From a virus: DNA of 32,880 bases. The DNA lies in IMG/VR virus record IMGVR_UViG_3300020371_000033, positions 1 through 32,880 of that record, one strand, 5' to 3'. The position numbers were made by a program, and so were the translations under genes. This document shows, in pieces, positions 14,081 through 31,315 of the stretch (position 1 is the first letter of the stretch; each line of letters opens with the position of its first letter). A model generated the notes under the pieces. It had not been told where the DNA came from. It did no database searches and worked only from the letters and a program-made list of their open reading frames with translations.

Positions 14081-15688
14081 ATGTCAAGAATTAATGTAAA
14101 TACCATTTCCGGAATTGGTGGCACACACATTCAACTTTTGCATGGTGCTGTTGGAGATGCTTCTAGATTAACATTTCCACCAAACATTATTGCATTTAAT
14201 CCGGAAGTTTTAAGTAGCAATTCTGAAATTAACACTAATATTACCTTTACATTTAATACTAATATTGAATTTAGTAATGTTCCTGGTGACATTAAATTGA
14301 GATCAGGTTCTTCTAGTGGAAGTGTAATTGAAACTTTCACCACCGGATCATCCTCAAGACTAACAATTGCTGCAAATACACTTACTATTGATCCAACCAA
14401 TGATCTTATTCATGATACAACTTACTACGTTGAATTACCTAGCGTAGGTATAGCTAATACTTTTGGAGCCCACTATTCAGGATCAAATACATATCACTTT
14501 AGAACTAAAGTAAATGATTTCGAACTAGTTGGTGGTAATTATAGCTTCAACAGAATGGATCCTACTTCACCAACAGGACTTTACAGATATCACGTTTTTA
14601 CTGGAAGTGGTAGCTTTACTATCAATAAACCAATGAATTCGGCGGTTGATCTGACTTATATGTTAATCGCTGGTGGAGGAGGAGCAGGTGGTGGGTATAG
14701 TCCTAGTTATGCTGCCGGTGGCGGCGGAGGTGCTGGTGGAATGTTGAATGGTTCAGGACCTACACTTTCTATGCCTGGACCAAACCCATATACTGTTACC
14801 ATTGGTGGCGGCGGTCAAGGTGGACCATACAGTAGTTATAATCCCGAACCAACTGGTAAAGGCACTAATAGTGTTCTTAGTGGTCCAACAGGAACTGTCA
14901 TAACAGCTCAAGGTGGTGGTGTTGGTGGAACAGGATACCCATCAGATTCTACTTGGGGACCAGGAAAACCTGGTGGTTCTGGTGGTGGCGGTGGGTTGGG
15001 AAGTCCCACTTATCCAACTCAACCTAGTTATCCAAATAGGGGAAATCTTGCTTGGCCTGGCGGTAATGGGGTTCCTGGACAAGGAAATAGTGGTGGTAGA
15101 TCAAGTTTTGCTTATACTCCGACTTATGGTCACTGGATGAATGGTGGCGGTGGCGGCGGTGCCGGTGGTGGAGGTGGAAATGGAACTTACTCACCATGGC
15201 CTGGACCAGGATATTGGCCTAATTATCCAAACAATCCAAACTGGAATACTAAAGGTGGTGATGGTGGACCAGGAAGACCAATTCCTGCATTTGCTGGACC
15301 TAATTTATTAGGATATTTGCCAGATTCAGTATATCCAATGAATTTACTTGTGAATGCTAATAGTAACGGAATTGGTCCCAATGGATATTGGAGCGGTGGT
15401 GGAGGCGGCGGAGCACCGCATTCCGTTCCATTTTCTAGAGGTGGTGCTGGTGGTGTCGGCGGCGGCGGACATGCTTCTTGGTTTAATACTACATCTCAAC
15501 ATCCTACTCCAGCTTCAATCCAACCAGAATGGCCAAGACCTTCTCCTCATCCATACCATGGAAATCCTGGATGGGCTAACACAGGTGGTGGAGGTGGTTC
15601 AAGAGGAGGTCCAGACCCAAGTACTTACACTAGAGGTTCTGGAGCTTCCGGAGTATTCATGGTTCGCTACGCTATCGTGGAGAATTAA
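14081..15688 (+). CDS. Adhesin array member 1: SbsA Ig-like plus Gly-rich domain
   Basis: 535 residues. Residues 1-35 are a short N-terminal block (MSRINVNTISGIGG). Residues 40-145 form an SbsA/Big_5 Ig-like domain: NTNITFTFN, IKLRSGSSSGSVIETF, LTIDPTNDLIHDTTYYVELP, YHFRTK. Residues 150-190 (YSFNRMDPTSPTGLYRYHVFTGSGSF) are a linker conserved in all four paralogues. From about residue 195 the rest is Gly-rich with GGGGG runs and Pro/Tyr/Trp/Asn loops (GPGYWPNYPNNPNW), ending in the strand SGVFMVRYAI. It is a likely receptor-binding adhesin at a tail-fibre tip, by analogy with Gly-run adhesins. AGGAAAA lies just before the ATG. It shares a 44-base identical stretch with member 2. Confidence 0.8.
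   Translation: MSRINVNTISGIGGTHIQLLHGAVGDASRLTFPPNIIAFNPEVLSSNSEINTNITFTFNTNIEFSNVPGDIKLRSGSSSGSVIETFTTGSSSRLTIAANTLTIDPTNDLIHDTTYYVELPSVGIANTFGAHYSGSNTYHFRTKVNDFELVGGNYSFNRMDPTSPTGLYRYHVFTGSGSFTINKPMNSAVDLTYMLIAGGGGAGGGYSPSYAAGGGGGAGGMLNGSGPTLSMPGPNPYTVTIGGGGQGGPYSSYNPEPTGKGTNSVLSGPTGTVITAQGGGVGGTGYPSDSTWGPGKPGGSGGGGGLGSPTYPTQPSYPNRGNLAWPGGNGVPGQGNSGGRSSFAYTPTYGHWMNGGGGGGAGGGGGNGTYSPWPGPGYWPNYPNNPNWNTKGGDGGPGRPIPAFAGPNLLGYLPDSVYPMNLLVNANSNGIGPNGYWSGGGGGGAPHSVPFSRGGAGGVGGGGHASWFNTTSQHPTPASIQPEWPRPSPHPYHGNPGWANTGGGGGSRGGPDPSTYTRGSGASGVFMVRYAIVEN
14696..14739 (+). repeat. 44-base sequence shared by adhesins 1 and 2 (copy A)
   Basis: Identical base for base to 16315-16358 in the next paralogue. 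It encodes the first Gly-run of the tip domain (YSPSYAAGGGGGAGG). Identity at synonymous sites suggests recent gene conversion or duplication. Confidence 0.8.
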
Positions 15689-15690
15689 TT

Positions 15691-17292
15691 ATGGCACATT
15701 TAGAAGTAACAGCAGTATCGGGAATTGCCAGTGGTTCAAGTTACCTACCTGTATATTTTGAAACTGGCGTTGCAGGTGATGGAAATCACATGTCTTTTAC
15801 TCCAGAACTACTATCTTCCAATCCACCAGCGTTTGCAACAAATGTAGACGTAACATCTAATATTTCTTTCACTTTCAATCAAAATATAGAATTAGTACCA
15901 AATGGAATAATTGAAATTCGCTCCGGATCAAATAACGGAACTTTAATAGAATCATTTAATACAGGTATTTCTGGTGCCTTGAGTGTCAATGGTGACACAT
16001 TAACAATTAATCCATCTAATGATCTGAGTTTTTTTACTGATATATTTGTTGTTCTTCCTTCTGTTGGAATTGCAAATACCTTTGGTGCCTCATATTCTGG
16101 AGTATCAAACTACAGTTTTAAAACTCAATACCAGCAGTTAAATGCTACTGGTGGAACTCATACATTTCCAAGGTCTAATCCTTCTTCACCAACTAATTAC
16201 TATAAGTACCATGTATTTCTAGGTACTGGTAATTTACAAATGAACGTCCCTAGCAAATCTAATCCCGACTTCAGAGTTCTTGTTGTTGGTGGAGGAGGTG
16301 CTGGAGGTAATGGTTATAGTCCTAGTTATGCTGCCGGTGGCGGCGGAGGTGCTGGTGGTGTTCTTGAAGGACCTGCTAGCTCTTTTGTTGATATTCCTTC
16401 AGGAACTCACACGATTTCAGTGGGTGGTGGTGGAGCTAGAGTTCCTTATAGTGGTAGCACCTATGATCCTCAATATAGTGGAAATCCATCAAAAATTGGT
16501 AATATAAGCGGATTAGAAGCATTTGGTGGTGGTCATGGAGGAGTATATGATCCGACTGCATACCGTGCTACGCCTAGTGGTGGTTCTGGTGGTGGAGGAT
16601 GGGGAGGACCATCTCCTTCAGCCTCACAAATAGGATATATACCTCCTGCGCAGGATGGACCTGCGAAGGGATTTCTAACGAGGAAAGGTGGATATTCTTA
16701 CCCCACTCAAGGAAATCCAGGTGGTATAGCGGCTAAAGGATATAATCCAAACTATGGAGATTATTATGGAGCTGGTGGTGGCGGAGGTGCTGGACAAGTG
16801 GGTGGTAATTCAACCTATCCAACATGGCCTGGACCAGGATATTGGCCATCATATCCAAACCATCCAAACTGGAGATGTGTGAGTGGAAATGGAGGAGGTG
16901 GAAAAGCTTGTCCTAATTTCTCAAATCCAATCATCGGACCTTATTGTCCTTTGATTCCGAGTCCATCTAAAAGTGAGATTGGTCCACAAGGATATTATGG
17001 CGGCGGTGGTGGCGGCGGCGCTCCTGATATTCCATGGGTTACATCTGGAAATGGTGGTGCCGGAGGCGGCGGACATGGTGGATTTGTTAATTGGCCACCT
17101 TCAAGTTATCCCTACACCCCATCACCGTTTTCACCAAATGTTTCCCCAAATTATAATGCTGAGGATGGATATGTTCATTTAGGTGGAGGCGGTGGCGGTG
17201 GATGTTCGCCAAATCCAAGTAATTATAATATAGGTGCAGGTGGATCTGGTATCGTTATTGTCAGATATGCAATTCCTTCAACTTTAGCTTAA
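15691..17292 (+). CDS. Adhesin array member 2: SbsA Ig-like plus Gly-rich domain
   Basis: 533 residues, starting 2 bases after the stop of member 1, so translation is likely coupled. The N-terminal ~35 residues have diverged from the other members (MAHLEVTAVSGIASGSSY). The Ig-like domain covers about residues 38-148 (NISFTFNQNIELVPNGIIEI, LTINPSNDLSFFTDIFVVLP, YSFKTQ). Then come the HTFPRSNPSSPTNYYKYHVF linker and, from about residue 198, the Gly-rich domain with loops such as GPGYWPSYPNHPNW, nearly the same as in member 1. It ends in GSGIVIVRYAI. Cysteines occur in the late loops (GNGGGGKACPNF, GPYCP, GGGGCSP), absent from member 1. A receptor-binding role is inferred. Confidence 0.8.
   Translation: MAHLEVTAVSGIASGSSYLPVYFETGVAGDGNHMSFTPELLSSNPPAFATNVDVTSNISFTFNQNIELVPNGIIEIRSGSNNGTLIESFNTGISGALSVNGDTLTINPSNDLSFFTDIFVVLPSVGIANTFGASYSGVSNYSFKTQYQQLNATGGTHTFPRSNPSSPTNYYKYHVFLGTGNLQMNVPSKSNPDFRVLVVGGGGAGGNGYSPSYAAGGGGGAGGVLEGPASSFVDIPSGTHTISVGGGGARVPYSGSTYDPQYSGNPSKIGNISGLEAFGGGHGGVYDPTAYRATPSGGSGGGGWGGPSPSASQIGYIPPAQDGPAKGFLTRKGGYSYPTQGNPGGIAAKGYNPNYGDYYGAGGGGGAGQVGGNSTYPTWPGPGYWPSYPNHPNWRCVSGNGGGGKACPNFSNPIIGPYCPLIPSPSKSEIGPQGYYGGGGGGGAPDIPWVTSGNGGAGGGGHGGFVNWPPSSYPYTPSPFSPNVSPNYNAEDGYVHLGGGGGGGCSPNPSNYNIGAGGSGIVIVRYAIPSTLA
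16315..16358 (+). repeat. 44-base sequence shared by adhesins 1 and 2 (copy B)
   Basis: Identical to 14696-14739; the flanks differ, so the identity is confined to this block. Confidence 0.8.
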
Positions 17293-17298
17293 TTAAAA

Positions 17299-18831
17299 AT
17301 GTCTGAAATTAGAGTAAACACAGTTATATCTTCGGCAGAGCCAGGTAGAAAGGTTCATTTTGAAAATGGTCTATCTGGAATAGGTAGTCATTTGAGTTTA
17401 GCACCAGAGATAACTAATTTTTCTCCTGAAGGTAACGCATTTGAAGTTCCTTTAAATACAAATATTGTATTCACTTTTGATCAAGATATACAATTTTCGA
17501 GTGTGCCTGGTGATATTGAGTTGAGAATTGATAGTGCTGATGGTGAATTGATAGAATCCTTTACTACAGGATCTTCTTCAAATCTCAGCATCTCTAACAA
17601 TGTATTGACTATTAATCCTACGGATGATTTATATTCTAATAATGCTTATTATATTATAATACCAACACCAGCTATATCTAATAGTTTTGGTGTTCCGTTT
17701 AAAGGTATTAATAAGTATAAATTTACCACAACAAGAACTGGATTTGTAATAACTGGTGGCACACATACGTTTACAAGAAGTGATCCGCAATCTCCTACAG
17801 GATCTTTTAAGTATCATGTATTTACCGGAACAGGTCCTCTTGTTTTGAATTCTCCTGGAGGAACTTCACCTTCATCTGCCATGCTACTTGTTGGTGGAGG
17901 CGGTGGCGGTGGTTCATATCCTGGTAATTATCAAGGAAGCGGCGGCGGAGGCGGCGGTGGATTTATTAAAGAAAATTCTATATCAAAACTATCGAGAGGT
18001 TCTTATACTGTCACTATTGGATCTGGAGGAATAGGACATAGACCCACATCTAGTAGTTATGGTCAAAGCGGAGAAGATAGTATAGTTGCAACTCCTACCG
18101 GAACACAAATTTTAAAGGCCAAAGGTGGTGGCGGTGGATATTTTCAAGAACCTTATTCACCTGAAGGACAACGAAAAGGTGGTTCTGGAGGTGGACGTAA
18201 TGCGGGACAACCTAGTCCACAACAACCACAGGCTAGATTTGGATCACCTGGTTATATCGGTCAAGGAAACCGTGGTATGGGTAATAATTCTGGTAGCCCA
18301 CAACCATATCATTATATAGTAGGTGGTGGTGGTGGTGGCGCTGCTATTGAGGGTGGTGCTAGTGCTACATTCAATGCACCAGGAACTCCATATGGTTCAG
18401 GAAGCAGGGGTGGTTTTGGGGGTTCTGGTTCTCCTGCACCAGAGTTTAGATCACCAGAAATCGGTCCAAGTTCACCAACAATCCCACCATCTTCACGAAC
18501 TAAAATAGGAAGTCAGGGTTTATATGGCGGTGGAGGTGGCGGCGGTGCCGGTGGTCCATGGCCTAGTTACCCAACACCAGCTTTTACTGCGGGTGCAGGC
18601 GGTCCTGGTGGTGGTGGGCATGGTTCAAGAGTAAATCCATCATATTCACCTTTTGGGGGTCCACTAATGACTCCAACTAGTCCTGAACCCGCATTCCAAG
18701 GTCCAGATAACTTTGCTCAACCTGGATATCAATGCACAGGTGGAGGTGGTGGTGGATCTCCTGGTCCATATGGAACTTACTATGCTGGTAATGGTGGTAG
18801 TGGAATCTTTGTAATTAGATATTCTGTTTAA
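17299..18831 (+). CDS. Adhesin array member 3: SbsA Ig-like plus Gly-rich domain
   Basis: 510 residues, the shortest member, starting 6 bases after member 2. N-terminal block MSEIRVNTVISSAEPGRKVH; SbsA Ig-like domain at about residues 35-146 (NTNIVFTFDQDIQFSSVPGD, LTINPTDDLYSNNAYYIIIP, YKFTTT), closest in this part to member 1, with which it shares SSVPGDI-like wording. The linker THTFTRSDPQSPTGSFKYHV is followed from about residue 197 by Gly-rich sequence with different loops (QPSPQQPQARFGSPGY, SGSPAPEFRSPEIGPSSP) and the closing strand GSGIFVIRYSV. The scaffold is conserved while loops differ, the pattern expected of receptor-specificity diversification. Confidence 0.8.
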   Translation: MSEIRVNTVISSAEPGRKVHFENGLSGIGSHLSLAPEITNFSPEGNAFEVPLNTNIVFTFDQDIQFSSVPGDIELRIDSADGELIESFTTGSSSNLSISNNVLTINPTDDLYSNNAYYIIIPTPAISNSFGVPFKGINKYKFTTTRTGFVITGGTHTFTRSDPQSPTGSFKYHVFTGTGPLVLNSPGGTSPSSAMLLVGGGGGGGSYPGNYQGSGGGGGGGFIKENSISKLSRGSYTVTIGSGGIGHRPTSSSYGQSGEDSIVATPTGTQILKAKGGGGGYFQEPYSPEGQRKGGSGGGRNAGQPSPQQPQARFGSPGYIGQGNRGMGNNSGSPQPYHYIVGGGGGGAAIEGGASATFNAPGTPYGSGSRGGFGGSGSPAPEFRSPEIGPSSPTIPPSSRTKIGSQGLYGGGGGGGAGGPWPSYPTPAFTAGAGGPGGGGHGSRVNPSYSPFGGPLMTPTSPEPAFQGPDNFAQPGYQCTGGGGGGSPGPYGTYYAGNGGSGIFVIRYSV

Positions 18832-18836
18832 ATTTT

Positions 18837-18843
18837 CTAAATA
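18837..18843 (+). promoter_or_regulatory. Possible variant late promoter CTAAATA
   Basis: In the only sizeable gap of the adhesin array, 22 bases before the ATG at 18866. One mismatch from ATAAATA. Confidence 0.3.
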
Positions 18844-18865
18844 ACTAAACGATAAACTTAGATAA

Positions 18866-20413
18866 ATGTCATCAACTTTAAGAGTTAATTCACTAACTAA
18901 TGCCGATGGGACAGGTGCTGTAAATTTCCCTCATGGGATTACTGGTGACGGTTCTGGTTTGGATTTTAATCCAGAAGTGATTGGATTTAATCCGGATTTA
19001 TTCAAATCTGGAGTTGCTGTTGATACCAATATAACTATATCCTTCAATCAAAATATTCAATTCTTTGGCACTGGAACTATAGAAATTAGACAAGGTTCTT
19101 CCAGTGGAAGTATAGTTGAAAGTTTTGCTATTACTAGTGGGAGTCCTGCCTCTGGATTGTCTATTGTAAATAATCAATTAATTATAAATCCAACTGCGGA
19201 TTTAGCTATTAATACTACTTTTTATATTGTTCTTCCATCTCAAGGAATTTCTAATACTTCTGAAGTTTTTTATGCAGGATCAAACCACTATGCATTCACC
19301 ACAATAAGTGAAACATTTAGCATGAGTGGTGGTAATCATGAATTTATTTCTGCAAATCCTTCATCACCAACAGGATTTTATAAGTATCATATATTTACTG
19401 GAACATCTGCTATTTCATTATCTGCACCATCAGCAAATGCAACGGACTTTACAAGTCTATTTGTTGCTGGCGGTGGCGGTGGTGGTGGATATCCTAGTAG
19501 CTATCGTGCTGGTGGTGGCGGCGGCGCTGGAGGATTGCTTAAGAGAACAGGACCTCAACTTGGAATACCTGCAGGAGATTATACTGTGGTGGTTGGTGCT
19601 GGTGGACAAGGAATGGGATGGAATCCTACTAACACAAATGGTCAAGATACTGTAATATCACCACCTACTTCACCAACAACTTATTTAATTAGAGCGGTTG
19701 GTGGTGGTGCTGGTGGATATCCAGCATATAATCCCTCACCTCCACACTATCAGGGAATGCCTGGTGGTTCTGGTGGTGGTGCTTACTCCGAATCTACACC
19801 CAATCAATCAACCATGCCATCTTTATCGCAAGGCGGCAGTGGTTTTACTGGTCAAGGAAATCCAGGTGGCGGAAATATGTTCCATTCCCCTCCTGGTTAT
19901 TGTCAGGTAGGTGGAGGTGGCGGCGGTGCCGGTGCGCCTGGTACAAGAGGCTTTACCGATACCAATAATTATCCTACTTCTAATTATTATTATGGTGGAA
20001 CTGGCGGTGCTGGGATACAAGTTTCTGAATTTCCATTTACTGAAATTTTCTCCCCTGGAGTTATTCCAGAATCAGATTTTCCAAGTGATACATTAGAACG
20101 TTCTGAAAATGGTTACTTTGCTGGTGGTGGCGGCGGTGGTGCATCACCACCACCATCAAACCATTACCGTGGGCAAGGTGGTATAGGTGGTGGTGGAAAC
20201 GGATCTGGTAATTCAGCTCCAGTTCCTGTAGGACCACCAGTTTATACCCCATATCCTGGACATCCTACTTCAACCAACTATGCACAAGATGGTGCTGCTC
20301 GACTTGGTGGTGGCGGTGGTGGTGGAAGAAATTCTGTCCCATCATACCGTGGTGGCAGAGGTGGTTCGGGTGTCGCTATGATTAGATACGCATACCCAGC
20401 GGATCTGGTATAA
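18866..20413 (+). CDS. Adhesin array member 4: SbsA Ig-like plus Gly-rich domain
   Basis: 515 residues. Its N-terminal block (MSSTLRVNSLTNADGTGAVN, FPHG) is the canonical fibre anchor-like module, matching the proteins at 3122 and 3566 better than members 1-3 do. Ig-like domain at residues 36-148 (NITISFNQNIQFFGTGTIEI, LIINPTADLAINTTFYIVLP, YAFTTI), linker NHEFISANPSSPTGFYKYHI, then Gly-rich sequence from about residue 200 with GGGGGGGYPSSYRAGGGG, FPFTEIFSPGVIPESDF loops and the closing strand GSGVAMIRYAY. It is separated from member 3 by 34 bases, unlike the 2-6 base gaps inside the array, so it may have its own promoter. An adhesin role is inferred. Confidence 0.8.
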   Translation: MSSTLRVNSLTNADGTGAVNFPHGITGDGSGLDFNPEVIGFNPDLFKSGVAVDTNITISFNQNIQFFGTGTIEIRQGSSSGSIVESFAITSGSPASGLSIVNNQLIINPTADLAINTTFYIVLPSQGISNTSEVFYAGSNHYAFTTISETFSMSGGNHEFISANPSSPTGFYKYHIFTGTSAISLSAPSANATDFTSLFVAGGGGGGGYPSSYRAGGGGGAGGLLKRTGPQLGIPAGDYTVVVGAGGQGMGWNPTNTNGQDTVISPPTSPTTYLIRAVGGGAGGYPAYNPSPPHYQGMPGGSGGGAYSESTPNQSTMPSLSQGGSGFTGQGNPGGGNMFHSPPGYCQVGGGGGGAGAPGTRGFTDTNNYPTSNYYYGGTGGAGIQVSEFPFTEIFSPGVIPESDFPSDTLERSENGYFAGGGGGGASPPPSNHYRGQGGIGGGGNGSGNSAPVPVGPPVYTPYPGHPTSTNYAQDGAARLGGGGGGGRNSVPSYRGGRGGSGVAMIRYAYPADLV

Positions 20414-20419
20414 TAAATA
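20412..20419 (+). promoter_or_regulatory. T4-type late promoter AATAAATA
   Basis: Matches NATAAATA, overlapping the stop of adhesin 4 and 25 bases before the ATG at 20445. Confidence 0.55.
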
Positions 20420-20444
20420 AAAACAAGAGAGGTACTTACTTAAA

Positions 20445-20855
20445 ATGGCTCATTTTGCTGAATTAGATTCAAACGATGTTGTAACAAGGGTTATTGTTGT
20501 TGCAAATAGTGATACTGCCGATGCAAGTGGTGTTGAAGATGAAGCAATTGGAATTGCTTACTTGAAAGGTCTTTTTGGTGAAAACACTAAATGGGCTCAA
20601 ACTTCTTACAACGGTAATATCAGAGGAAGGTATGCTGGAGTAGGATTTACTTTTGATAGTGAAAATGATCTATTCATTCCACCACAACCATATCCTTCTT
20701 GGATTCTTGATGCAAATACAAAGGAATGGAAAGCACCAATGCCAGAACCTGAACTGACTTCGGGCATGATCGAGAATGGACAAATTTGGTTGTGGGATGA
20801 AGAAAATGGAGAATGGAAAGAAAGTGAAGCAATTGTAGCTCCTCCAGCAGAATAA
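20445..20855 (+). CDS. Conserved small phage protein of unknown function
   Basis: 136 residues. The sequence MAHFAELDSNDVVTRVIVV, then FGENTKWAQTSYNGNIRGRY, YAGVGFTFD and PPQPYPSWILD is a familiar pattern in marine T4-like phages, usually annotated hypothetical. The second half has several W-containing short strands (WKAPMPEPE, IWLWDEENGEW) and an acidic C-terminus. Its position at the end of the adhesin array and its own late promoter suggest a virion or assembly role; a tail-fibre accessory protein is possible but not shown. A purine-rich AGAGAGG precedes the start. It is followed directly by the oxygenase promoter. Confidence 0.75.
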   Translation: MAHFAELDSNDVVTRVIVVANSDTADASGVEDEAIGIAYLKGLFGENTKWAQTSYNGNIRGRYAGVGFTFDSENDLFIPPQPYPSWILDANTKEWKAPMPEPELTSGMIENGQIWLWDEENGEWKESEAIVAPPAE

Positions 20856-20877
20856 TAATTGACATAAAGTCATTATT
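20854..20877 (+). promoter_or_regulatory. Imperfect inverted repeat over the -35 element
   Basis: Left arm AATAATTGAC and right arm GTCATTATT flank ATAAA; the arms pair fully apart from one unpaired T. The left arm contains most of the -35 TTGACA. It could be an operator or a weak transcript end for the preceding gene; there is no T-run after it. Confidence 0.35.
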
Positions 20878-20887
20878 GAACTATAAT
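20859..20887 (+). promoter_or_regulatory. Consensus sigma70 promoter (TTGACA-17-TATAAT)
   Basis: TTGACA at 20859-20864 and TATAAT at 20882-20887 with exactly 17 bases between, both perfect consensus hexamers. Such promoters serve host RNA polymerase and in T4-like phages mark early transcription. It lies immediately before the oxygenase cassette, in contrast to the late octamers around it. Confidence 0.8.
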
Positions 20888-20901
20888 TAAAATTGAACAA
20901 T

Positions 20902-20906
20902 AGGAG
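20902..20906 (+). promoter_or_regulatory. Shine-Dalgarno (AGGAG) that selects a TTG start
   Basis: AGGAG lies 8 bases before the TTG at 20915. It supports TTG as initiator, since no ATG or in-frame GTG is better placed. Confidence 0.65.
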
Positions 20907-20914
20907 TGTGAAAA

Positions 20915-21535
20915 TTGGCATTTCAGAGTGTTTGGTACTTCAGTGATATTCCTGAAGACATTGTCACTATTTTAGAAAAAGATCTTGCCGATACTTTTGA
21001 TAAAGAGATGGGTGACTCTCGTCTTATGGGAGATGCACTGAATAAAGATAAAAGAAATTCAAAGAATGCATGGGTGCCAACCACTCATTGGTTGGGTGGT
21101 TTCATGTGGCATTATATTGAACGTGCAAATCGTGAAAACTTTTTGTATGATCTGAGATGTATTGATGGTGAATCCATGCAGTATACTCAATATGGTCCTG
21201 GACAGTTTTACAGTTGGCATAATGATTCTGGTCTTGCAGGTCATTATAAACCAGAAACTGTTGGTAATAGAATGGAAGGGAGAGCAAGTGACTTTGTTAA
21301 TGAAAATACTGAACTGGTTCGTAAACTTTCATTTGTTCTTCAACTTTCTGATCCTGATGATTATGAAGGTGGAAACCTTCAATTGCTTGATGAGGCTGGG
21401 AAAGGTTACTTTGCACCACGTAAACGAGGAACTGTAATTTTATTTGATTCTCGAACACAACATCGAGTTCTCCCTGTTAAATCTGGTCTCCGTAAATCTA
21501 TCGTTGGTTGGACTGTTGGTCCTCGTTGGAAGTGA
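20915..21535 (+). CDS. 2OG-Fe(II) oxygenase (prolyl/PKHD hydroxylase-like)
   Basis: 206 residues from a TTG start with AGGAG at good spacing. The fold signature is clear: FYSWHNDSG gives the iron ligands His102 and Asp104 (H-x-D), TQHRVLPV gives the distal His183, and GLRKSIVGW gives Arg193, the usual 2-oxoglutarate carboxylate contact. LSFVLQLSDPDDYEGGNLQL, followed by GTVILFDS, matches prolyl 4-hydroxylase/PKHD-type enzymes, which hydroxylate using O2 and 2-oxoglutarate. All key residues are present, so activity is expected; the substrate is unknown (protein residue, nucleotide or small metabolite). It is first in a three-gene cassette behind a sigma70 promoter and runs into the next gene with an 8-base gap. 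Confidence 0.85.
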   Translation: MAFQSVWYFSDIPEDIVTILEKDLADTFDKEMGDSRLMGDALNKDKRNSKNAWVPTTHWLGGFMWHYIERANRENFLYDLRCIDGESMQYTQYGPGQFYSWHNDSGLAGHYKPETVGNRMEGRASDFVNENTELVRKLSFVLQLSDPDDYEGGNLQLLDEAGKGYFAPRKRGTVILFDSRTQHRVLPVKSGLRKSIVGWTVGPRWK

Positions 21536-21543
21536 GGTAAATC

Positions 21544-22263
21544 ATGGCAGAAGCAATGACTTTAGAAAGTCTTCAAGCGCAAGAGTTTCATAATACTGGA
21601 ACTTCCTGGACTAGGAACGAACAGTTTGAAAAGGATGGATATCTTGTAGTAAAAGATTTGTGGAATGTTGAGGAACTTCTTCGTCCAGTTCCAGAAGAAA
21701 GGGGGCAAATAAACTATTGGGGCACTAAACCCGATCAGTTTAATTTTACACCTCTTGAAGGACAGGTAGAAGGTTCACTAGCTGTTTATACGCATCCGCA
21801 ATATAAACATATTCATACTGGTATTCGTCTTAAGCTTGAAGAGATTATCGGTAGAAAATTATATAATACGTATTATTATGATAGATTTTATTTTGCCGGA
21901 CAAGAATTAACAATTCATGCTGATAGAGATGCTTGTGAAATATCTGTTAGTGTACACATCAGCACTAACCTTGATGAGTGTTGGCCACTTTGGATTAAAA
22001 CTCCTGATACCTACAATGAAGATAAATCAGAAGTTCTAAAAGGTGGTGAGAAACGCTCAGTTTGTTTGAATCCTGGTGATGGTATGATTTACAAAGGATG
22101 TGAAAGACCACATTGGCGTGAACCACTTGTGTCAAGACATACCGGTAATCATTTTATTCGTAAACTAAATCAAGAGGATGATACTTTCTATCATCAAGTA
22201 TTCTTTCACTATGTACTTGCTGATGGAAAACGTGCCCATTGTGCATATGATATGGCGAGGTAA
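21544..22263 (+). CDS. 2OG-Fe(II) oxygenase-like protein, second type
   Basis: 239 residues. The N-terminal 50 residues are helical and include NEQFEKDGYLVVKDLWNVEE, the opening typical of phytanoyl-CoA-dioxygenase-like and related oxygenases. YFAGQELTIHADRDACEISV supplies His125 and Asp127 (H-x-D); GDGMIYKGCERPHWREPL supplies a candidate distal His190; VFFHYVLADG closes the fold. The 2OG-binding Arg is less certain, with Arg192 or Arg200 possible. It is clearly different from the first gene at sequence level, so this is not a recent duplication. The family is common in marine T4-like phages and has no assigned substrate. It has a GAGG upstream and is separated by two bases from the third gene, indicating one operon. 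Confidence 0.8.
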   Translation: MAEAMTLESLQAQEFHNTGTSWTRNEQFEKDGYLVVKDLWNVEELLRPVPEERGQINYWGTKPDQFNFTPLEGQVEGSLAVYTHPQYKHIHTGIRLKLEEIIGRKLYNTYYYDRFYFAGQELTIHADRDACEISVSVHISTNLDECWPLWIKTPDTYNEDKSEVLKGGEKRSVCLNPGDGMIYKGCERPHWREPLVSRHTGNHFIRKLNQEDDTFYHQVFFHYVLADGKRAHCAYDMAR

Positions 22264-22265
22264 TT

Positions 22266-22907
22266 ATGAAAACACTTGAAGAAATTTTTGGTGATGTAAG
22301 TTTGATTGGTCAAACTCCAAATATGATCATGTCTGTACAACTTCCCGATAGAATTTTCGGTGAAGTTGAGAGTTGGATTGAACCTTGTCGGTCAATTAAA
22401 GATGATGAATATGCAGAACTTTTGAATCATCGTAACGTTGGTACAGGACACAATTCATATCAAACTGGTATTGCTAAAAAGTATATTGATAATAGTTATT
22501 TCTTAGGTTATACTATTCAGCTAGCTGAATTATACTTAAAAACTATTAAACATCCATTGAGACAACCGATGGGTGATTATAATCGTTCTGTGGCAATGAG
22601 AGATAGTCCTGGTCATTATGATGGATATGATATTTGGATGAATTTCACATATAAAGGTGATGATAATCCAATCCATAACCATGCAGGAGATTTTTCCTCT
22701 ATCATCTATGTTAAAGATGATGATTGTCAACCAACCATTTTCCCAAGTATTAATTACGTACATAATCCAAAGGTGGGTGAAATGCTACTTTTCCCTGCAC
22801 CACTGATGCATGAAGTTAATGTAAAGCAAACTGAATCTGAGAGAATAACAGTTTCTTATAATTTAATTCTTGTAAATTACGACAACAATAATACTGGAGG
22901 ATACTGA
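22266..22907 (+). CDS. Putative 2OG-Fe(II) oxygenase, 2OG-FeII_Oxy_5-like
   Basis: 213 residues. The C-terminal half fits the 2OG-FeII_Oxy_5 pattern: WMNFTYKGDDNPIHNHAGDF (H-x-H at His137/His139), SSIIYV, GEMLLFPAPLMHEVNV (distal His182) and ERITVSYNLIL (Arg193). In this family the first motif often reads H-x-H rather than H-x-D, so the metal ligand set differs from the two upstream genes; catalysis is likely but less certain. Residues 1-100 are an N-terminal region with helices (YTIQLAELYLKTIKHPLRQP) of unknown role. It begins two bases after the second gene and ends six bases before the terminator stem, so it is the last cistron of the cassette. Confidence 0.78.
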   Translation: MKTLEEIFGDVSLIGQTPNMIMSVQLPDRIFGEVESWIEPCRSIKDDEYAELLNHRNVGTGHNSYQTGIAKKYIDNSYFLGYTIQLAELYLKTIKHPLRQPMGDYNRSVAMRDSPGHYDGYDIWMNFTYKGDDNPIHNHAGDFSSIIYVKDDDCQPTIFPSINYVHNPKVGEMLLFPAPLMHEVNVKQTESERITVSYNLILVNYDNNNTGGY

Positions 22908-22913
22908 TATACA

Positions 22914-22940
22914 CCGAGCAGTAAAATGCTCGGTTTTTTT
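22914..22940 (+). terminator. Rho-independent terminator of the oxygenase cassette
   Basis: CCGAGCA (22914-22920), loop GTAAAA, TGCTCGG (22927-22933), then seven T. A perfect 7-bp GC-containing stem with a T-run closes the cassette just before a late promoter. Confidence 0.88.
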
Positions 22941-22947
22941 ATAAATA
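22940..22947 (+). promoter_or_regulatory. T4-type late promoter TATAAATA
   Basis: Exact TATAAATA overlapping the last T of the terminator and 17 bases before the ATG at 22965; it restarts late transcription after the oxygenase cassette. Confidence 0.65.
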
Positions 22948-22964
22948 TCTAAAAAGCACATATA

Positions 22965-23513
22965 ATGTCTCAGACAAGAGCGCAATTATTATCTCCTGTT
23001 GGTATTTTTACTGGTACGGGTATCAGTATAAATGGCATTATTACTGCTACTAGCTTCGTAGGAGATGGTTCTGGTCTCATTAACGTTGCCGGTGGTGGCG
23101 GAGGTGCTGGATCACTAATTGTAAAAGATAGTGGCACTCTTGCTGGAACTATCGGAACTATTGATTTTGGATCCGGTCTTGATGTTACTGATGCAATATC
23201 GGGTATAGTCACAGTTTCTGCCACTGATACTGATACACTTTATTCTCAGTCAGCAGTTGCATCTGGTGATGATGTTAATTTAAGATTATCTGGCACTGAC
23301 TCAACCACTGATGATCTATTGATAACGGCAGGTGACAATATAACTATTACATCAGTAAACTCTAATGGTTTTACAATCAATAGCACATCTGTGGAAGCAA
23401 CTAAAGTTTTAACAATTGGTGTTAGGACAGGTGCTGCTGTTTCATTTGGACTACCTTCCAGCACATTTAATGTTATTGGAAGAAGTGGGAACAACATTCC
23501 CATCACAGTATAA
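22965..23513 (+). CDS. Modular fibre-like structural protein
   Basis: 182 residues. The N-terminus MSQTRAQLLSPVGIFTGTGI is a variant of the shared MSxxR block. ATSFVGDGSGLINVAGGGGG is the common GDGS-L module found in four other proteins here. The middle has a repetitive beta-type region (GTIDFGSGLDVTDAISGIVT, then DDVNLRLSGTDSTTDDLLIT and ITITS) that recalls beta-helix turns. The C-terminus, LTIGVRTGAAVSFGLPSSTF, echoes LTIGRRTGAKV at the end of the 10187 protein, so the same terminal cap is used twice. It is a probable virion component with no enzymatic motif. Confidence 0.7.
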   Translation: MSQTRAQLLSPVGIFTGTGISINGIITATSFVGDGSGLINVAGGGGGAGSLIVKDSGTLAGTIGTIDFGSGLDVTDAISGIVTVSATDTDTLYSQSAVASGDDVNLRLSGTDSTTDDLLITAGDNITITSVNSNGFTINSTSVEATKVLTIGVRTGAAVSFGLPSSTFNVIGRSGNNIPITV

Positions 23514-23515
23514 TA

Positions 23516-23522
23516 CTAAATA
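23516..23522 (+). promoter_or_regulatory. Possible variant late promoter CTAAATA
   Basis: One mismatch from ATAAATA, 20 bases before the ATG at 23543. Confidence 0.3.
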
Positions 23523-23542
23523 GATAAAAATAGTTCTTTAAA

Positions 23543-24610
23543 ATGGCTGATAGGTTTCCACTAATTGCCAATACTAGTGCTAACCAGATACAAGAGATTG
23601 GGTCTGGAGATAACTTAGACTTAACGGGAAATAATATAAAAGGTGTTTCAAACGTTGAAGCTATCAGCATCAACGTTGCTGACAACATCAGCGTTTCTGG
23701 AGTATCAACTTTTGCCGGGCAAACTTTTATTCCTAATATCGCTGGAGTATCTACATTTGCCTCTGATGTAGATTTAAGTTCTAATCTTACTGTTAGTGGA
23801 GCAACTAACTTAAATCAATTGTCAGTCACGGGCGTGACAACAATTGGAGGTTTAACATTTGCTGCCGATGGAAATAATACTGAACTAACGGAAGATAATG
23901 GTTCTATAATTATTAATCAACCAGAACTTCATCACGGTGGATCAAAAAAACTTGAGACCACCAACTCTGGAGTTACCGTAACTGGTGGTATAACAGCAAG
24001 TTTATTTACTGGTAATGGTTCTGGATTAACAGATGTTGTTGGTCAAGGATCTGGTGTTCAGGTTAAAGATGATGGTAGCACTGTAGGCGTTGCTGCAACA
24101 ATTAATTTTGGTGGAAACTTATATGTAAGTGCATTATCTAATGGAGCTGTAACAGTTACTTCTGGTGGTATTGATTCTGGATATTTTGAACTTAATAATG
24201 TAGGTATTCACACATTATCCCGTGTTGGTGTTGGAACTGACAATCCAACTGTTCCTTTAGAAGTTCTTGGAAATATTAAATCTTCTGCTACAATATCGGC
24301 ACAAGATTTTAATACAACATCAGATCAAAGTCTTAAAGAAAACGTAGAAAATATTGTTGGAGCACTTGATAAACTAAGTCAGATTAGAGGTGTAAGTTTT
24401 GATTGGGTTGGACGTGAAGAATCTTCGATGGGTGTGATTGCACAGGAAGTTGAATCTGTATTCCCAGAAATAGTTTCAACCACGGAACCAAAACAGGTAA
24501 ATTATAATGGATTGATTGGTGTTTTAGTTGAAGCAGTTAAGGAGTTGAAGTTGGAAAATGATTTATTGAGAGCACAAATTCACGATGTTATGAACACAAT
24601 CAATAGTTAG
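23543..24610 (+). CDS. Tail-fibre protein with C-terminal peptidase S74 chaperone
   Basis: 355 residues. The first 40 residues (MADRFPLIANTSANQIQEIG, DNLDLTGNN) are homologous to the N-terminus of the minimal S74 protein at 12086. The shaft carries repeated GVSTFA motifs, a GGSKKLETTNSGVTVTGGIT module, GNGSGLTDV and VQVKDDGSTVG. The C-terminal domain is S74: TTSDQSLKENV with Ser260/Lys265 (Ser plus five), FDWVG, MGVIAQEVESVFPEIV, VNYNGLIGVLVEAVKEL and a coiled-coil tail. Autocleavage before Ser260 is expected after trimer folding. It is the third S74 protein of the window and the complete counterpart of the short one. Confidence 0.85.
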   Translation: MADRFPLIANTSANQIQEIGSGDNLDLTGNNIKGVSNVEAISINVADNISVSGVSTFAGQTFIPNIAGVSTFASDVDLSSNLTVSGATNLNQLSVTGVTTIGGLTFAADGNNTELTEDNGSIIINQPELHHGGSKKLETTNSGVTVTGGITASLFTGNGSGLTDVVGQGSGVQVKDDGSTVGVAATINFGGNLYVSALSNGAVTVTSGGIDSGYFELNNVGIHTLSRVGVGTDNPTVPLEVLGNIKSSATISAQDFNTTSDQSLKENVENIVGALDKLSQIRGVSFDWVGREESSMGVIAQEVESVFPEIVSTTEPKQVNYNGLIGVLVEAVKELKLENDLLRAQIHDVMNTINS

Positions 24611-24620
24611 GTAATTTCAG

Positions 24621-25691
24621 ATGGCTTTTACTAAGATATCTGGTGCCGGAATATCATCAGAAGCACCAGTTATAATCAATAATTTAATTGGTGTAGGTGC
24701 TAAACTATCTGGAATTGTTACTGCTGCATCATATCATGGTGATGGATCTTCTTTAGATGGAATATCTGTAGCTGGTATTGACACAACTGCTACTTCAGTA
24801 TTCAATAGTGTTAATTTTGATAATGCGATTTCAACTGGAAATTTAAATATTGGTGGCAACTCAATCTTTACTGGTATTGTTACAGTAACTGGATTGTTGG
24901 ATGCTACTCTCAATGGCAATGTAATTGGTAATGTTACTGGTAATGTCACTGGTAATTCTGATAGTGCTACATTAGCAACCAACGCTCAAGGACTTACAGG
25001 ATCACCTAATATAACTGTTGGCGACATAGTTGCAGATAATATCTCAGTTATTAATACTATAACATATGAAGATGTAACTAACGTAGATTCTGTTGGTATA
25101 GTTACCGCCAGAGGTGGTTTTGATATTGGTATATCTTCTAGTGGAACTTTAATTAATAATGGTCCAATAAAGGCATTGAATTTTGTAGGGACAGGAAATA
25201 CTTTTGCTGTTCGTGGAACAACTGTTGACATCAGTATTGAAAGTGGTTCTGGTGGAGGGGGTGGAGGTAGTGGATTATCGGATGATGATCATTTAAATAA
25301 GACTCTCTTCATAAATTATTCTGGATTTGATTCTAATACCACTATTGGTTCTCCACAAAAATTTGGGGAAGTATTTGCACATGATGAGATATTTGTTGAT
25401 ATTGAAGATGGTGTGACTGTATCGATTGATGAATCATGTGTTCTAGATATTACATCAAAGGATGATTTTGATATTGCATTCTTTGCTAATGGAGCATCTG
25501 CTACAAATATTATGAAGAAAAATGGTTTTGAAGATAACATTAGAAGTGTATTCAGTTCTAATATTCATTTGACTGGTAAAGCCAAGGTTGGTTACGGCAA
25601 AATTCCTCCAGAAATTCAAGATATAGTTTCATACGATATTGAACCTGGAGTACAAGTCACTGTTGATGAAGGTGGACTCCTTGCATTATAA
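24621..25691 (+). CDS. Modular tail-fibre-like protein
   Basis: 356 residues. N-terminus MAFTKISGAGISSEAPVIIN. Modules in order: ATSYHGDGSSLDGI-type strand, a GNVTGNVTGN repeat with ATNAQGLTGSPNITVGDI (also in the 5382 protein), TITYEDVTNVDSVGIVTAR near residue 150, then ALNFVGTGNTFAV and VDISIESG followed by a Gly run. The last ~130 residues form a separate domain with no recognised relative here (IFVDIEDGVTVSIDESCVLD, YDIEPGVQVTVDEGGLLAL); its two VTVS/T-x-D-E-(S/G) repeats suggest a small beta-solenoid. It ends 4 bases before a late promoter extends across its stop. It is a probable fibre with a distinct distal head. Confidence 0.75.
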   Translation: MAFTKISGAGISSEAPVIINNLIGVGAKLSGIVTAASYHGDGSSLDGISVAGIDTTATSVFNSVNFDNAISTGNLNIGGNSIFTGIVTVTGLLDATLNGNVIGNVTGNVTGNSDSATLATNAQGLTGSPNITVGDIVADNISVINTITYEDVTNVDSVGIVTARGGFDIGISSSGTLINNGPIKALNFVGTGNTFAVRGTTVDISIESGSGGGGGGSGLSDDDHLNKTLFINYSGFDSNTTIGSPQKFGEVFAHDEIFVDIEDGVTVSIDESCVLDITSKDDFDIAFFANGASATNIMKKNGFEDNIRSVFSSNIHLTGKAKVGYGKIPPEIQDIVSYDIEPGVQVTVDEGGLLAL

Positions 25692-25694
25692 ATA
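25687..25694 (+). promoter_or_regulatory. T4-type late promoter TATAAATA
   Basis: Exact TATAAATA overlapping the preceding stop codon, 32 bases before the ATG at 25727. Confidence 0.62.
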
Positions 25695-25726
25695 ATTTCT
25701 AGCAAAAACCGTCACGACAAAAACGA

Positions 25727-26764
25727 ATGTCTACATTAAGAGTCGATAATATAAAATCGAGGACGGGTTCGGTTGTAACTGTTCCCGATACAAATACACT
25801 TGCAGTGACGGGTATTGTTTCCGTTACAAGCGGTGGTGCTATTACAAATGCAGGTAACTTAACTAACACTGGTAACTTAACTAACACTGGTGATTTAAGT
25901 GTTGGTGGTAATGCAACAGTTTCTGGATCACTGGATGTAACTGGTGGTGGAAACTTTAGTACTACTGGTATTATCACTGCTGGATCACTTAATGTTGGAA
26001 CACTTACCCAAGAAAATGCTGCTTTTTCTGGTGTTGTAACTGCCACAGCATTTAGTGGAGATGGTTCTGGACTTACAAATGTAGGATTATCAACCACTGG
26101 AATTTCAACAGGTGTTGGATTGCATGTCGTTCCTGTTGGTCAAACTGCTGGTTCTTACGGTGAGGATCTTGTTGTTGTTGGTGATGCTAGAGTTACTGGC
26201 ATACTTACAATTGGAACTTCTTCAATCGTACTTGATCCTTCAAGCAGATCCTTATCTCTCCATACAGATACGGTAATTCGTAGAAATAATCATTCGGGAG
26301 AAATTGAGTTTGTTGATGCATCTAACAATCCTAAAAAGATTGTTGCAGAAGAACTTACTCTCGGTACCGGTGCTAACGCTACCAAGTTAAAAAGAAAAGG
26401 CAAAAAATTAGTTATTGAAACAGGTGATGGTACAGGTGGTGTTAGTATCGGTAAATCTTGGACAGTTTTACCATCAGGAATTACAACAAATCTCTCCATA
26501 AATAGTTACTACTTTGTTGATACATTAAGTGGTGTTGTTAATGTTAAATTACCACAAACTCCAGAAGTTGGGGACTTTGTGGTAATTGCAGACCACACGG
26601 GAGGATGGGGAATTACTAGTTGTGTGGTAGCACCTCATGCTTCAGCAACAGGTGGAGCAACTTATATTCATGGATCAACTGAAACTTTAGAAGCAAATGT
26701 TAAATTTGCTACTGCTACATTAACATTTACAGGAATTTCTACAGTAGGCTGGTTAGTAAAATGA
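25727..26764 (+). CDS. Modular tail-fibre-like protein
   Basis: 345 residues. Starts with the shared block MSTLRVDNIKSRTG. Residues 43-54 contain NLTNTG twice, encoded by an 18-base direct repeat. FSGDGSGLTNVG and EDLVVVGDARVTGILTIGTS (also in the 10187 protein) follow. The last ~100 residues are a recognised phage tail module: SYYFVDTLSGVVNVKLPQTP, VGDFVVIADHTGGWG and strands ending TFTGISTVGWLVK. This module often caps virion proteins. The TGA overlaps the next ATG by four bases (ATGA), so translation of the possible propeller protein downstream is coupled. Confidence 0.75.
   Translation: MSTLRVDNIKSRTGSVVTVPDTNTLAVTGIVSVTSGGAITNAGNLTNTGNLTNTGDLSVGGNATVSGSLDVTGGGNFSTTGIITAGSLNVGTLTQENAAFSGVVTATAFSGDGSGLTNVGLSTTGISTGVGLHVVPVGQTAGSYGEDLVVVGDARVTGILTIGTSSIVLDPSSRSLSLHTDTVIRRNNHSGEIEFVDASNNPKKIVAEELTLGTGANATKLKRKGKKLVIETGDGTGGVSIGKSWTVLPSGITTNLSINSYYFVDTLSGVVNVKLPQTPEVGDFVVIADHTGGWGITSCVVAPHASATGGATYIHGSTETLEANVKFATATLTFTGISTVGWLVK
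25853..25888 (+). repeat. 18-bp tandem direct repeat (GNLTNT)
   Basis: GGTAACTTAACTAACACT occurs twice head to tail with no mismatch, encoding GNLTNT twice, then a degenerate third unit. It is a recent slippage or duplication event in a fibre shaft. Confidence 0.75.
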
Positions 26765-28137
26765 CAAAACTCTCAGGATTAATCGGATTTGGTGCTGGTT
26801 CTGGTGGTGCAGGGGACTCTCGTCTTACATCTTTCCCAGATTCAATAAAACTGGGTTCATTCTCAACTGATGGCACTGCTCAGGGATACAACTTTCAAGA
26901 TTCAAATATGGATGCATATGCGCAACCGTTGCGTATTAGGGGTTTTGATACCAGTAGTGATGCATTTGTAGCGTATAATGTTTCTACAAGACAGAGTAGC
27001 TCACCCGGATCTGGCAACCACTATCATGGATTATGGTTATTTTCTATTGATCAAACAACTGGTGTGCCTTCGTTTGCAGACTATACTAGTGCATTGAGTA
27101 GTAATAGTCCTTATGACTATTCAACTTTTTCTAGAGCTTCTGACGAATGGAGTGGTAGATATTGCTATATGGGTAATATTCCACGACAAAGTAGTCCTGC
27201 CCACCAGCAGGGTTATAACGCATATAAAATAAACTGGAATGGTTCCAGTGTTAGCACTAGTGGAACTTATAGTAACAATAGCTCCTATTCAGCCAACGGT
27301 AATTCAGGTGAGCATAGTTTTTATCTAGAACCATCTGAGAGAAGAAACGGGGGAGCAGTAACTCATATTTGTACCGGTAACAGTAGCGGTAATGCTGCTG
27401 CCATGGAATTTAGATATTCATATAGTGCCTCTAGTTTATCTAATCAGTCTGTCTATAATCCAGTATATACTAGTAGCGTTACCTCTACAAATCGTAATGT
27501 TAGACATTTTTGGCAATGGGATCAAGGTTCACAACCTTATTACGATGTTTTTCATAGTATGCCAAATGGCATCCTAGCGAGAACTAGAGGCAGTAATAGT
27601 TGGGGTATTGTTCAATCAGGATCTCATGATCTACGGAGTTGTGTCTTTCATTTGAGCACTGGTAAATGTGTATTGTATTATGATGGAAATCAGTATTTAA
27701 TCGACACTTCCGGGACTAAAACTCAAATTACATCAAATATAGTCGGCTGGTTAGGTGCTTGCCGTGGAGCTAGTTATGGTGCTTCTACTCACGCTTGGAA
27801 CATTGGTCAAGATGAATGGATTCTTAATACTTCAGGAGGATTATGGCTTAAATGGAAATTTGATCCTAATACTGGACAGCTTGATAAAGCATCTCAAGTC
27901 ATTAGATCTGATGATGCATTTTATGAAACTTTAGATCAGAATTCTCATTATAAAACCGGTTTAAGAAGTCAAAATTTGGGTTATTCACACCAAACGTTTA
28001 CATATGGCACCAATAATAGTAGTGGACCGGGATATGGTAATAACAAATTAGTTTACATTGGTGGAACACAATATAAATTATACGTCAAAACTTATGACCT
28101 TCAATTAATAATTGACAAATTAGAGTACCTTAGCTAG
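26761..28137 (+). CDS. Possible beta-propeller tail protein (distal head)
   Basis: 458 residues. N-terminus MTKLSGLIGFGAGSGGAGDS, then a Ser/Tyr/Trp/Asn-rich body. Two D-x-x-TG motifs at strand ends (LWLFSIDQTTGVPSF near residue 100 and LKWKFDPNTGQLDKA near residue 370) and several W-ended strands (NIVGWLGACRGASYG, NIGQDEWILNTSGG) suggest beta-propeller blades. This is weaker evidence than a family match. No Asp-box or catalytic signature was found. Composition resembles the central part of the 944-residue protein at 6785. It starts inside the stop of the preceding fibre gene, so the two probably form one fibre or fibre-head pair. Confidence 0.65.
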   Translation: MTKLSGLIGFGAGSGGAGDSRLTSFPDSIKLGSFSTDGTAQGYNFQDSNMDAYAQPLRIRGFDTSSDAFVAYNVSTRQSSSPGSGNHYHGLWLFSIDQTTGVPSFADYTSALSSNSPYDYSTFSRASDEWSGRYCYMGNIPRQSSPAHQQGYNAYKINWNGSSVSTSGTYSNNSSYSANGNSGEHSFYLEPSERRNGGAVTHICTGNSSGNAAAMEFRYSYSASSLSNQSVYNPVYTSSVTSTNRNVRHFWQWDQGSQPYYDVFHSMPNGILARTRGSNSWGIVQSGSHDLRSCVFHLSTGKCVLYYDGNQYLIDTSGTKTQITSNIVGWLGACRGASYGASTHAWNIGQDEWILNTSGGLWLKWKFDPNTGQLDKASQVIRSDDAFYETLDQNSHYKTGLRSQNLGYSHQTFTYGTNNSSGPGYGNNKLVYIGGTQYKLYVKTYDLQLIIDKLEYLS

Positions 28138-28144
28138 GAGAATT

Positions 28145-28384
28145 ATGGCTTACAGTTCAATGGCAGATTTGCGTGCTGCACGCGATTTAGCACTTAAAAA
28201 TTCTGATTTTTATGTTCTTCCAGATTATAAATTTACTGGAGAATTTGCAGATGAAAATAAAACATTAATCATGTTGTACAGACAATACCTTAGAGATCTT
28301 CCTTCGGAAGTGGATGAGAATGACCTGACTGGAGTAGAGTTACCAGTATTTCCAGAACTTCATCCCAGAGCTGTAGTAGAATAA
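28145..28384 (+). CDS. Tail-fibre assembly / phage tail assembly chaperone-like protein
   Basis: 79 residues. The pattern LRAARDLALKNSDFYVLPDY followed by a helix ending YRQYLRDLP resembles phage tail assembly chaperone proteins (R-x-x-RD-x-L-x-x-(S/T)D-(W/F)-x-x-LPD ... YRQ-x-LRDLP). Those assist folding of neighbouring fibre proteins and are usually encoded just after them, as here. AGGAG lies just before the start, 7 bases after the stop of the possible propeller protein. It is small, mostly helical, and not expected to be in the virion. The family call is from pattern only. Confidence 0.7.
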   Translation: MAYSSMADLRAARDLALKNSDFYVLPDYKFTGEFADENKTLIMLYRQYLRDLPSEVDENDLTGVELPVFPELHPRAVVE

Positions 28385-28387
28385 TTA

Positions 28388-28396
28388 TGCTATAAT
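28388..28396 (+). promoter_or_regulatory. Extended -10 sigma70-type promoter (TGCTATAAT)
   Basis: TG-C-TATAAT is a perfect extended -10 element. No convincing -35 is seen. It is 21 bases before the glutaredoxin ATG, and the same TTATGCTATAAT string recurs at 31313-31324. Confidence 0.6.
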
Positions 28397-28417
28397 AATT
28401 GAAACATTTTATTTAAT

Positions 28418-28654
28418 ATGAAATTTTTAGTATATTCAAAAAATGGATGTCCTTATTGCTATAAGGTGAAACAAGTGTTAGAATTAACTGGTAAGCAATT
28501 TGTTGAGTACAAACTCGGCAGAGAGTTTACGGGTGAAGAATTTTATGATAAATTTGGAGAGGGTGCTACCTTCCCACAAGTTCTTTGTGATGATCGAAAG
28601 TTAGGAGGATGTGTTGACACCATTCAGTTTCTCAGAGAAGAAAAAGTTATTTAA
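28418..28654 (+). CDS. Glutaredoxin
   Basis: 78 residues. The redox centre CPYC is at residues 11-14 after the strand FLVYSKNG. The cis-Pro segment is TFPQVL, and GGCVDTIQFL matches the GG-x-D glutathione-binding loop, in which Cys replaces the usual residue. Length fits phage glutaredoxins. It would use glutathione to reduce disulfides, most likely ribonucleotide reductase in phage nucleotide synthesis, fitting thyX downstream; other targets are possible. It is often labelled NrdC in T4-like phages. No Shine-Dalgarno is visible, but an extended -10 promoter lies just upstream, indicating early or middle expression. Confidence 0.92.
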   Translation: MKFLVYSKNGCPYCYKVKQVLELTGKQFVEYKLGREFTGEEFYDKFGEGATFPQVLCDDRKLGGCVDTIQFLREEKVI

Positions 28655-28660
28655 TCAGGG

Positions 28661-28668
28661 CATAAATA
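28661..28668 (+). promoter_or_regulatory. T4-type late promoter CATAAATA
   Basis: Matches NATAAATA, 17 bases before the GTG at 28686; it could drive the next small genes late in infection. Confidence 0.5.
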
Positions 28669-28685
28669 AAAATAACACCCGTGAA

Positions 28686-31314: not shown

Positions 31315-31315
31315 A

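Follow-up and report, generated by a model that had tools for sequence, protein, structure and literature searches.

Three genes that lie among the tail-fibre genes of a marine virus are best read as an early-expressed mobile pair of co-acting hydroxylases accompanied by an optional third enzyme, a reading to which we assign a probability of roughly 0.6. The genes were studied in a 32,880-base IMG/VR fragment (IMGVR_UViG_3300020371_000033), the whole of which is called the window below. That cyanophages and pelagiphages carry the gene 1/gene 2 pair is already known. The structural reassignment of gene 2 as a predicted 2-oxoglutarate (2OG)-Fe(II) oxygenase, the operon-specific promoter and leader signature, and the relics showing relocation of the unit appear to be new.

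Genomic setting of the cassette

The window comes from a T4-like marine cyanophage, its right end having about 70% DNA identity to S-SKS1 and S-SM2. Tail-fibre and fibre-chaperone-like genes extend to about 28.1 kb and are followed by a glutaredoxin-like gene, a ThyX-like gene and the beginning of a PhoH-like one; the cassette is located among the tail-fibre genes. It consists of three plus-strand open reading frames at 20915-21535 (gene 1), 21544-22263 (gene 2) and 22266-22907 (gene 3), with gaps of 8 and 2 bases, and is as tightly packed as had been stated in an earlier, sequence-only reading of this DNA. That reading had also placed a host-type promoter within late genes that use T4-type octamers on both sides of the cassette, and this is borne out. 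The preceding late gene (20445-20855, plus strand; phrog_7759, no function assigned), relatives of which are also found near the cassette in other contigs, has the octamer AATAAATA at 20412-20419. The next late gene (22965-23513) has TATAAATA at 22940-22947, overlapping the T run of the terminator described below. Both octamers are on the plus strand, and a scan of the window found none inside the cassette. ATAAATA occurs 12 times on the plus strand of the window and 0 times on the minus strand; this total does not exceed chance (13.3 expected), whereas so uneven a distribution between the strands does (two-sided p 0.0005). The octamer lies 13-32 bases 5' of nine gene starts in the window, both cassette-flanking genes among them.

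Codon third-position GC is 0.21-0.22 in the three cassette genes, like that of the tail-fibre genes, and 0.25-0.43 in the genes to the right of 28850. Because of this resemblance the cassette genes do not look like recent imports; recent import was considered, and composition gives no signal of it, the values being equal to those of the fibre genes.

Some other features of the window may be recorded here. Codon usage changes sharply between modules: third-position GC is about 0.2 in the fibre genes, and the small genes at 28854-32314 reach about 0.4. Four adjacent, apparently paralogous and strongly glycine-rich proteins of 510-535 residues are encoded at 14081-20413; they resemble variable adhesin-type fibre tips, and the last of them matches phrog_2295. 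A further strong promoter-like site (11/12, TTGACT-17-TATAAT) is located at 30006-30034, 19 bases 5' of a small open reading frame at 30054, in what is presumed to be an early region. An Rfam search of 20300-23600 gave no match.

A conserved promoter precedes gene 1

The claimed perfect promoter is present. A sigma-70 type site matching TTGACA-17-TATAAT at 12/12 positions occupies 20859-20887 on the plus strand (-35 box 20859-20864, -10 box 20882-20887), and its -35 box begins 3 bases past the stop codon of the preceding late gene. This is the sole 12/12 site in the interval 15000-32880. Promoter-like sites in that interval number 46, compared with a mean of 58 in shuffled sequence, so there is no excess and the reality of the promoter must rest on its conservation rather than on its score.

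With gene 2 as the query, 73 IMG/VR loci were obtained, and six annotated phages were added. Gene 1 has sufficient upstream DNA in 72 loci, including the window, and these provide 61 distinct upstream sequences. A promoter scoring at least 11/12 is found within 110 bases upstream of gene 1 in 69% of the 61. The equivalent frequency is 0.8% in dinucleotide shuffles and 1.2% (7/586) upstream of other open reading frames in the same loci. Fisher's test gives p of about 1e-43 for this enrichment, a value that overstates independence since the loci are related. All nine relatives that share the third gene have promoters scoring 11 or 12. Among relatives the -10 box is mostly 22-32 bases from the start codon, and the spacer and the five bases past the -10 box vary freely. 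Because of this variation, common descent alone fails to explain the fixed boxes. The diverged phages S-MbCM6 and P-RSM4 have no strong promoter upstream of gene 1. Each phage record that was fully searched contains about 16-25 sites when up to one mismatch is allowed, nearly all on one strand, compared with 0-3 for the reversed pattern. By these sequence comparisons the cassette promoter is a member of a genuine class of early-type promoters. From its conservation we infer that the cassette is expressed early; a search of the literature for early expression of these genes found nothing.

An operon-specific leader

The leader (20888-20914, plus strand) has a Shine-Dalgarno sequence, AGGAG, at 20902-20906. 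In the window's clade it contains TTGAACAATAGGAG, a shortened form of the operon-specific leader TGAATANATTATAGG that is common to many relatives. Alignment of the upstream sequences places the start of this block 6 bases past TATAAT, near the expected transcript start. In 12 phage records, TGAATANATTATAGG occurs almost exclusively at this locus when up to two mismatches are allowed. When all 2.9 million IMG/VR contigs were scanned for exact matches to TATAATN5TGAATANATTATA, 47 sites were found, of which 40 are directly 5' of gene 1 or of a gene 1 piece; the other 7 have no -35 box. Judged by these matches, the motif is essentially specific to this operon.

In many relatives the leader could be read as a short upstream open reading frame, NTG-AAT-ANA-TTA-TAR. 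This was rejected: the first base is not fixed, one codon has a middle base that ranks with the most variable positions, and in the window the frame is interrupted. A Fur-type iron box, considered since gene 1 is PiuC-like, was also rejected because the half-site spacing does not fit.

Termination and late read-through

An intrinsic terminator, earlier described as strong, was found on the plus strand at 22913-22941, where an 8-pair stem (5 G-C) at 22913-22934 is followed by TTTTTTT. It is predicted to shield the downstream gene from early transcripts. Between the late gene at 20445-20855 and the promoter there is no terminator, and late read-through into the cassette is therefore to be expected. 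The proposal that the cassette is an insulated unit thus holds on the downstream side and fails on the upstream side. Moreover, although a similar hairpin follows the operon in 5 of the 9 closest relatives, a terminator is present at only 10 of 69 distinct operon ends (still more than the 2.5% of other open reading frame ends), and was rejected as a general part of the cassette.

The open upstream side, together with the late octamer at 20412 and the fibre-like codon composition, would also suit a situation in which the promoter has no early use and late read-through from the fibre genes is the only source of expression. This would leave the strong, position-specific conservation of the promoter amid variable surroundings without a reason, and we consider it very unlikely. 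In the reading that we prefer, host RNA polymerase would transcribe the operon early in infection from its own sigma-70 type promoter, and late read-through from the octamer at 20412 would probably transcribe it again.

Three different predicted oxygenases

Gene 1 (phrog_61, T4-GC 412) begins with TTG, and in most relatives the aligned position is ATG or TTG. It matches PF13640 (2e-15, 58 bits over a cut-off of 27). The residues H102-x-D104, H183 and R193, which correspond to the HxD...H motif and the basic 2OG anchor, are invariant in nine diverse members, and by homology gene 1 belongs to the 2OG-Fe(II) oxygenase superfamily. It is nearest in sequence to PKHD hydroxylases and may be called prolyl-4-hydroxylase/PKHD (PiuC)-like, having a C-terminal catalytic core in common with the PKHD hydroxylases PiuC, YbiX and Sbal_3634 and with prolyl 4-hydroxylases. 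Gene 1 lies far under the NCBIfam cut-offs for YbiX/PiuC-type proteins (47.2 bits, with the curated PiuC/YbiX PKHD cut-off at 143) and is not filed as a member, though it may work like one.

Gene 3 (2OG-FeII_Oxy_5, PF13759, TIGR02466-like) matches PF13759 with an E-value of 2.3e-12 (47.6 bits, cut-off 27) and at 38.4 bits does not reach the curated TIGR02466 cut-off of 62.5. Its putative metal motif is HxH...H instead of HxD...H (H137-x-H139, H182, with R193). The predicted model is closest to 2rg4 and 3bvc (Z 15.5 to 2rg4), TIGR02466/PF13759 proteins that have the fold and the HxH...H motif in common with gene 3 and are likewise uncharacterised.

Gene 2 (phrog_2954, T4-GC 615) has no Pfam match. 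It had been read as an oxygenase from its motif alone, and the structural prediction that was then proposed as a check now supports this. The AlphaFold model (pLDDT 89.5) has the double-stranded beta-helix fold, and 2OG oxygenases make up all of its best matches (Z 14.6 over 161 residues, rmsd 3.0; Foldseek E 5e-8). The facial triad H125, D127 and H190 is conserved without exception in the 49 close and 11 diverse members compared, and from cyanophages to pelagiphages there is no variation in H125-x-D127-R128, G178-D179, H190-W191-R192 and Q218. R114, R128 and R192 are invariant as well, none of them at the usual 2OG-anchor spacing. The model predicts that gene 2 encodes a 2OG-Fe(II) oxygenase, and the three enzymes would then be of different types and not duplicates, as had been claimed. 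A search for a cellular source of gene 2 gave one match, in a short contig labelled as an Anaerolineales MAG, which may be a phage contig that was binned with it.

Foldseek lists AlkB with the structural matches to gene 2, and three members of the gene 2 family weakly match PF13532 (2OG-FeII_Oxy_2), the family to which AlkB belongs. The enzymes might then oxidise nucleic acids in repair or base modification, as AlkB or TET do. These matches are weak and non-specific, however, and gene 1 matches PKHD/P4H-type enzymes instead, so that we regard this activity as improbable.

A different function is implied by the name that the gene 2 family carries. T4-GC 615 was listed by Sullivan et al. 2010 (PMC3037559) as 'Hyp. 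with ferrochetalase domain', PHROGs gives phrog_2954 the 'ferrochelatase' label too, and surveys have taken the phage 'ferrochelatase' as a heme metabolism or auxiliary metabolic gene (PMC9599517, PMC11561400). If these labels were right, the operon would serve heme or iron supply. PF00762, however, has no match in 49 members of the family at E up to 5. A search of eight phage records with it, at E up to 10, was likewise empty, although 10 of 14 control genomes were positive. The model, moreover, has a 2OG-oxygenase fold with an invariant HxD...H. A true ferrochelatase is strongly disfavoured, and we leave it almost no probability. On this evidence the label of phrog_2954 is very probably a mislabel, and the repeated heme-enzyme claim about ocean viruses probably needs correcting. 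The reassignment is not wholly unprecedented, because some recent records already name this family oxygenase, or give both names.

A further label may be noted. Proteins of cyanophage and pelagiphage called 'DNA endonuclease V' (phrog_274; L084:1707-2225, L084:2830-3414 and L082:589-1071) weakly match PF13640 (0.0003 to 0.03), their genes sit inside oxygenase arrays, and the S-RIM50 'DNA endonuclease V' is among the fold matches of gene 2. This is probably another mislabelled oxygenase family.

An obligate pair and an optional third gene

Gene 1 is upstream of gene 2 in 69 of the 69 IMG/VR loci whose contig reaches far enough, directly so in about 63, and by this gene order the two are an obligate pair in the IMG/VR relatives. 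In S-PM2, which has gene 2, gene 1 is absent from the 2.5 kb shown. ACG-2014f has the two fused into one protein of 362 residues (phrog_3531), of which residues 11-183 match phrog_2954 and residues 179-361 match phrog_61; direct BLAST gives 1e-16 for the N half with gene 2 and 8e-11 for the C half with gene 1. Here the order is reversed relative to the window, the gene is near nrdB and CpeT, and no third oxygenase is annotated in the 5.3 kb shown. The obligate adjacency and the natural fusion suggest that genes 1 and 2 act jointly, and the complementary action that had been attributed to the cassette is supported for these two.

Gene 3 follows the pair in the nine closest relatives (L008-L016). 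A few other loci have a distant PF13759-type gene in its place and most have none; 71 of 79 further loci fetched with relatives of gene 3 lack genes 1 and 2 nearby. Gene 3 is an optional, exchangeable add-on at the level of the clade. What had been described as a three-gene unit is therefore a conserved pair to which gene 3 may be added: all three occur together in the nine closest relatives, but elsewhere mostly only the pair is found.

The two families correspond to the T4-GC 412 and T4-GC 615 pair of S-SM2, Bellamy, P-RSM4, ACG-2014b, S-RIM50 and Syn9, and are adjacent in most of these. The pair or array of T4-like cyanophages is often located at the end of the tail-fibre region, but the third gene and the flanks differ and some lack a strong promoter. 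The P-RSM4 and Syn9 arrays include further oxygenases, and in Syn9 and S-PM2 gene 2 is in another setting than in the window. Inside the Syn9 array, gp49 (L084:406-1116) is a JmjC/cupin-type oxygenase (PF08007, 1.3e-16), a further 2OG-oxygenase type. The pelagiphage 'ferrochelatase' is reported always to adjoin an oxygenase (PMC9599517), and the '2OG-Fe(II) oxygenase + ferrochelatase' partners (PMC9599517, PMC11561400; HTVC008M) belong to the phrog_61 and phrog_2954 families, as in the window. They differ in having other hosts, a different gene order and more oxygenases, and have been described as heme-related.

Relocation of the operon

The downstream neighbours of the operon belong to about twenty families, which include fibres, glutaredoxin, carbamoyltransferase-like and glycosyltransferase-like proteins and others (names assigned by eye). 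Two contigs were found to hold a decayed copy besides the intact operon. On the L014 contig, behind another fibre gene, promoter and leader are present with just the beginning of gene 1, some eight codons (MAYQSIWYS) before stops set in. On the L065 contig, a broken piece of gene 1 that still spells YGWHND comes after promoter and leader. Decayed second copies of promoter, leader and gene 1 pieces are recorded at L088:1590-1720 (G001:23089) and in L204 (reverse strand, about 900), in contigs with an intact operon. We read these copies as relics of earlier placements. Because they carry promoter and leader, they indicate that the unit relocates together with its promoter, moving among variable tail-fibre genes. 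The earlier description of the cassette as an inserted module is in this sense upheld, by the variable flanks as well as by the relics.

Possible targets

The core of the operon would thus consist of gene 1, prolyl-4-hydroxylase/PKHD-like, and the gene 2 oxygenase, to which the window's clade adds a TIGR02466-type oxygenase. Each enzyme should bind Fe(II) and 2-oxoglutarate and hydroxylate a substrate. Most likely the pair would act jointly, whether as a complex or on one target at which they modify two positions or carry out two steps. The probable early timing favours a target in the host, for example a protein belonging to its translation or metabolic machinery.

The location of the genes invites another proposal, namely that they sit among fibre genes because fibres are the substrate. 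The oxygenases would then hydroxylate the phage's own Gly/Pro-rich and sometimes collagen-like tail fibres, as viral collagen prolyl hydroxylases do. Genes for Gly/Pro-rich fibres do adjoin the cassette, at 14081-20413 in the window and in many relatives as well; L080 has a collagen-like neighbour; and structural comparison of genes 2 and 3 lists a viral collagen prolyl hydroxylase, 5c5t, with the neighbours of each. However, dozens of other 2OG enzymes rank level with 5c5t, the host-type promoter predicts expression before fibres are made, and neither the ACG-2014f fusion nor the S-PM2 gene 2 adjoins annotated fibre genes. A search for literature on hydroxylation of phage fibres found nothing. 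We consider fibre hydroxylation unlikely.

It has also been put forward that such enzymes draw down or sense 2-oxoglutarate and so tune host nitrogen or energy metabolism, the oxidised substrate mattering little (Sullivan et al. 2010, PMC3037559). The occurrence of 2OG oxygenases in 14 of 16 T4-like cyanophages (PMC3037559) and the early-type promoter are consistent with this, but the pairing and fusion of two distinct families with conserved active sites would be left unexplained, and the probability of this model seems to us low.

Returning to a jointly acting pair with a host target, a more specific form may be offered tentatively. Genes 1 and 2 might constitute a two-subunit or two-step early hydroxylase system with a mobile operon-specific leader, which would promote infection by modifying one particular host protein, and the many 'ferrochelatases' of marine phages might all be its second subunit. 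Published surveys read these 'ferrochelatases' as genes of heme and iron metabolism and report their enrichment in seasonal marine viruses. If they are in truth paired 2OG oxygenases, those heme and iron interpretations would change, and a widespread, conserved enzyme pair would become directly testable: both proteins are small, 2OG turnover is easily assayed, and a fusion of the two exists in nature.
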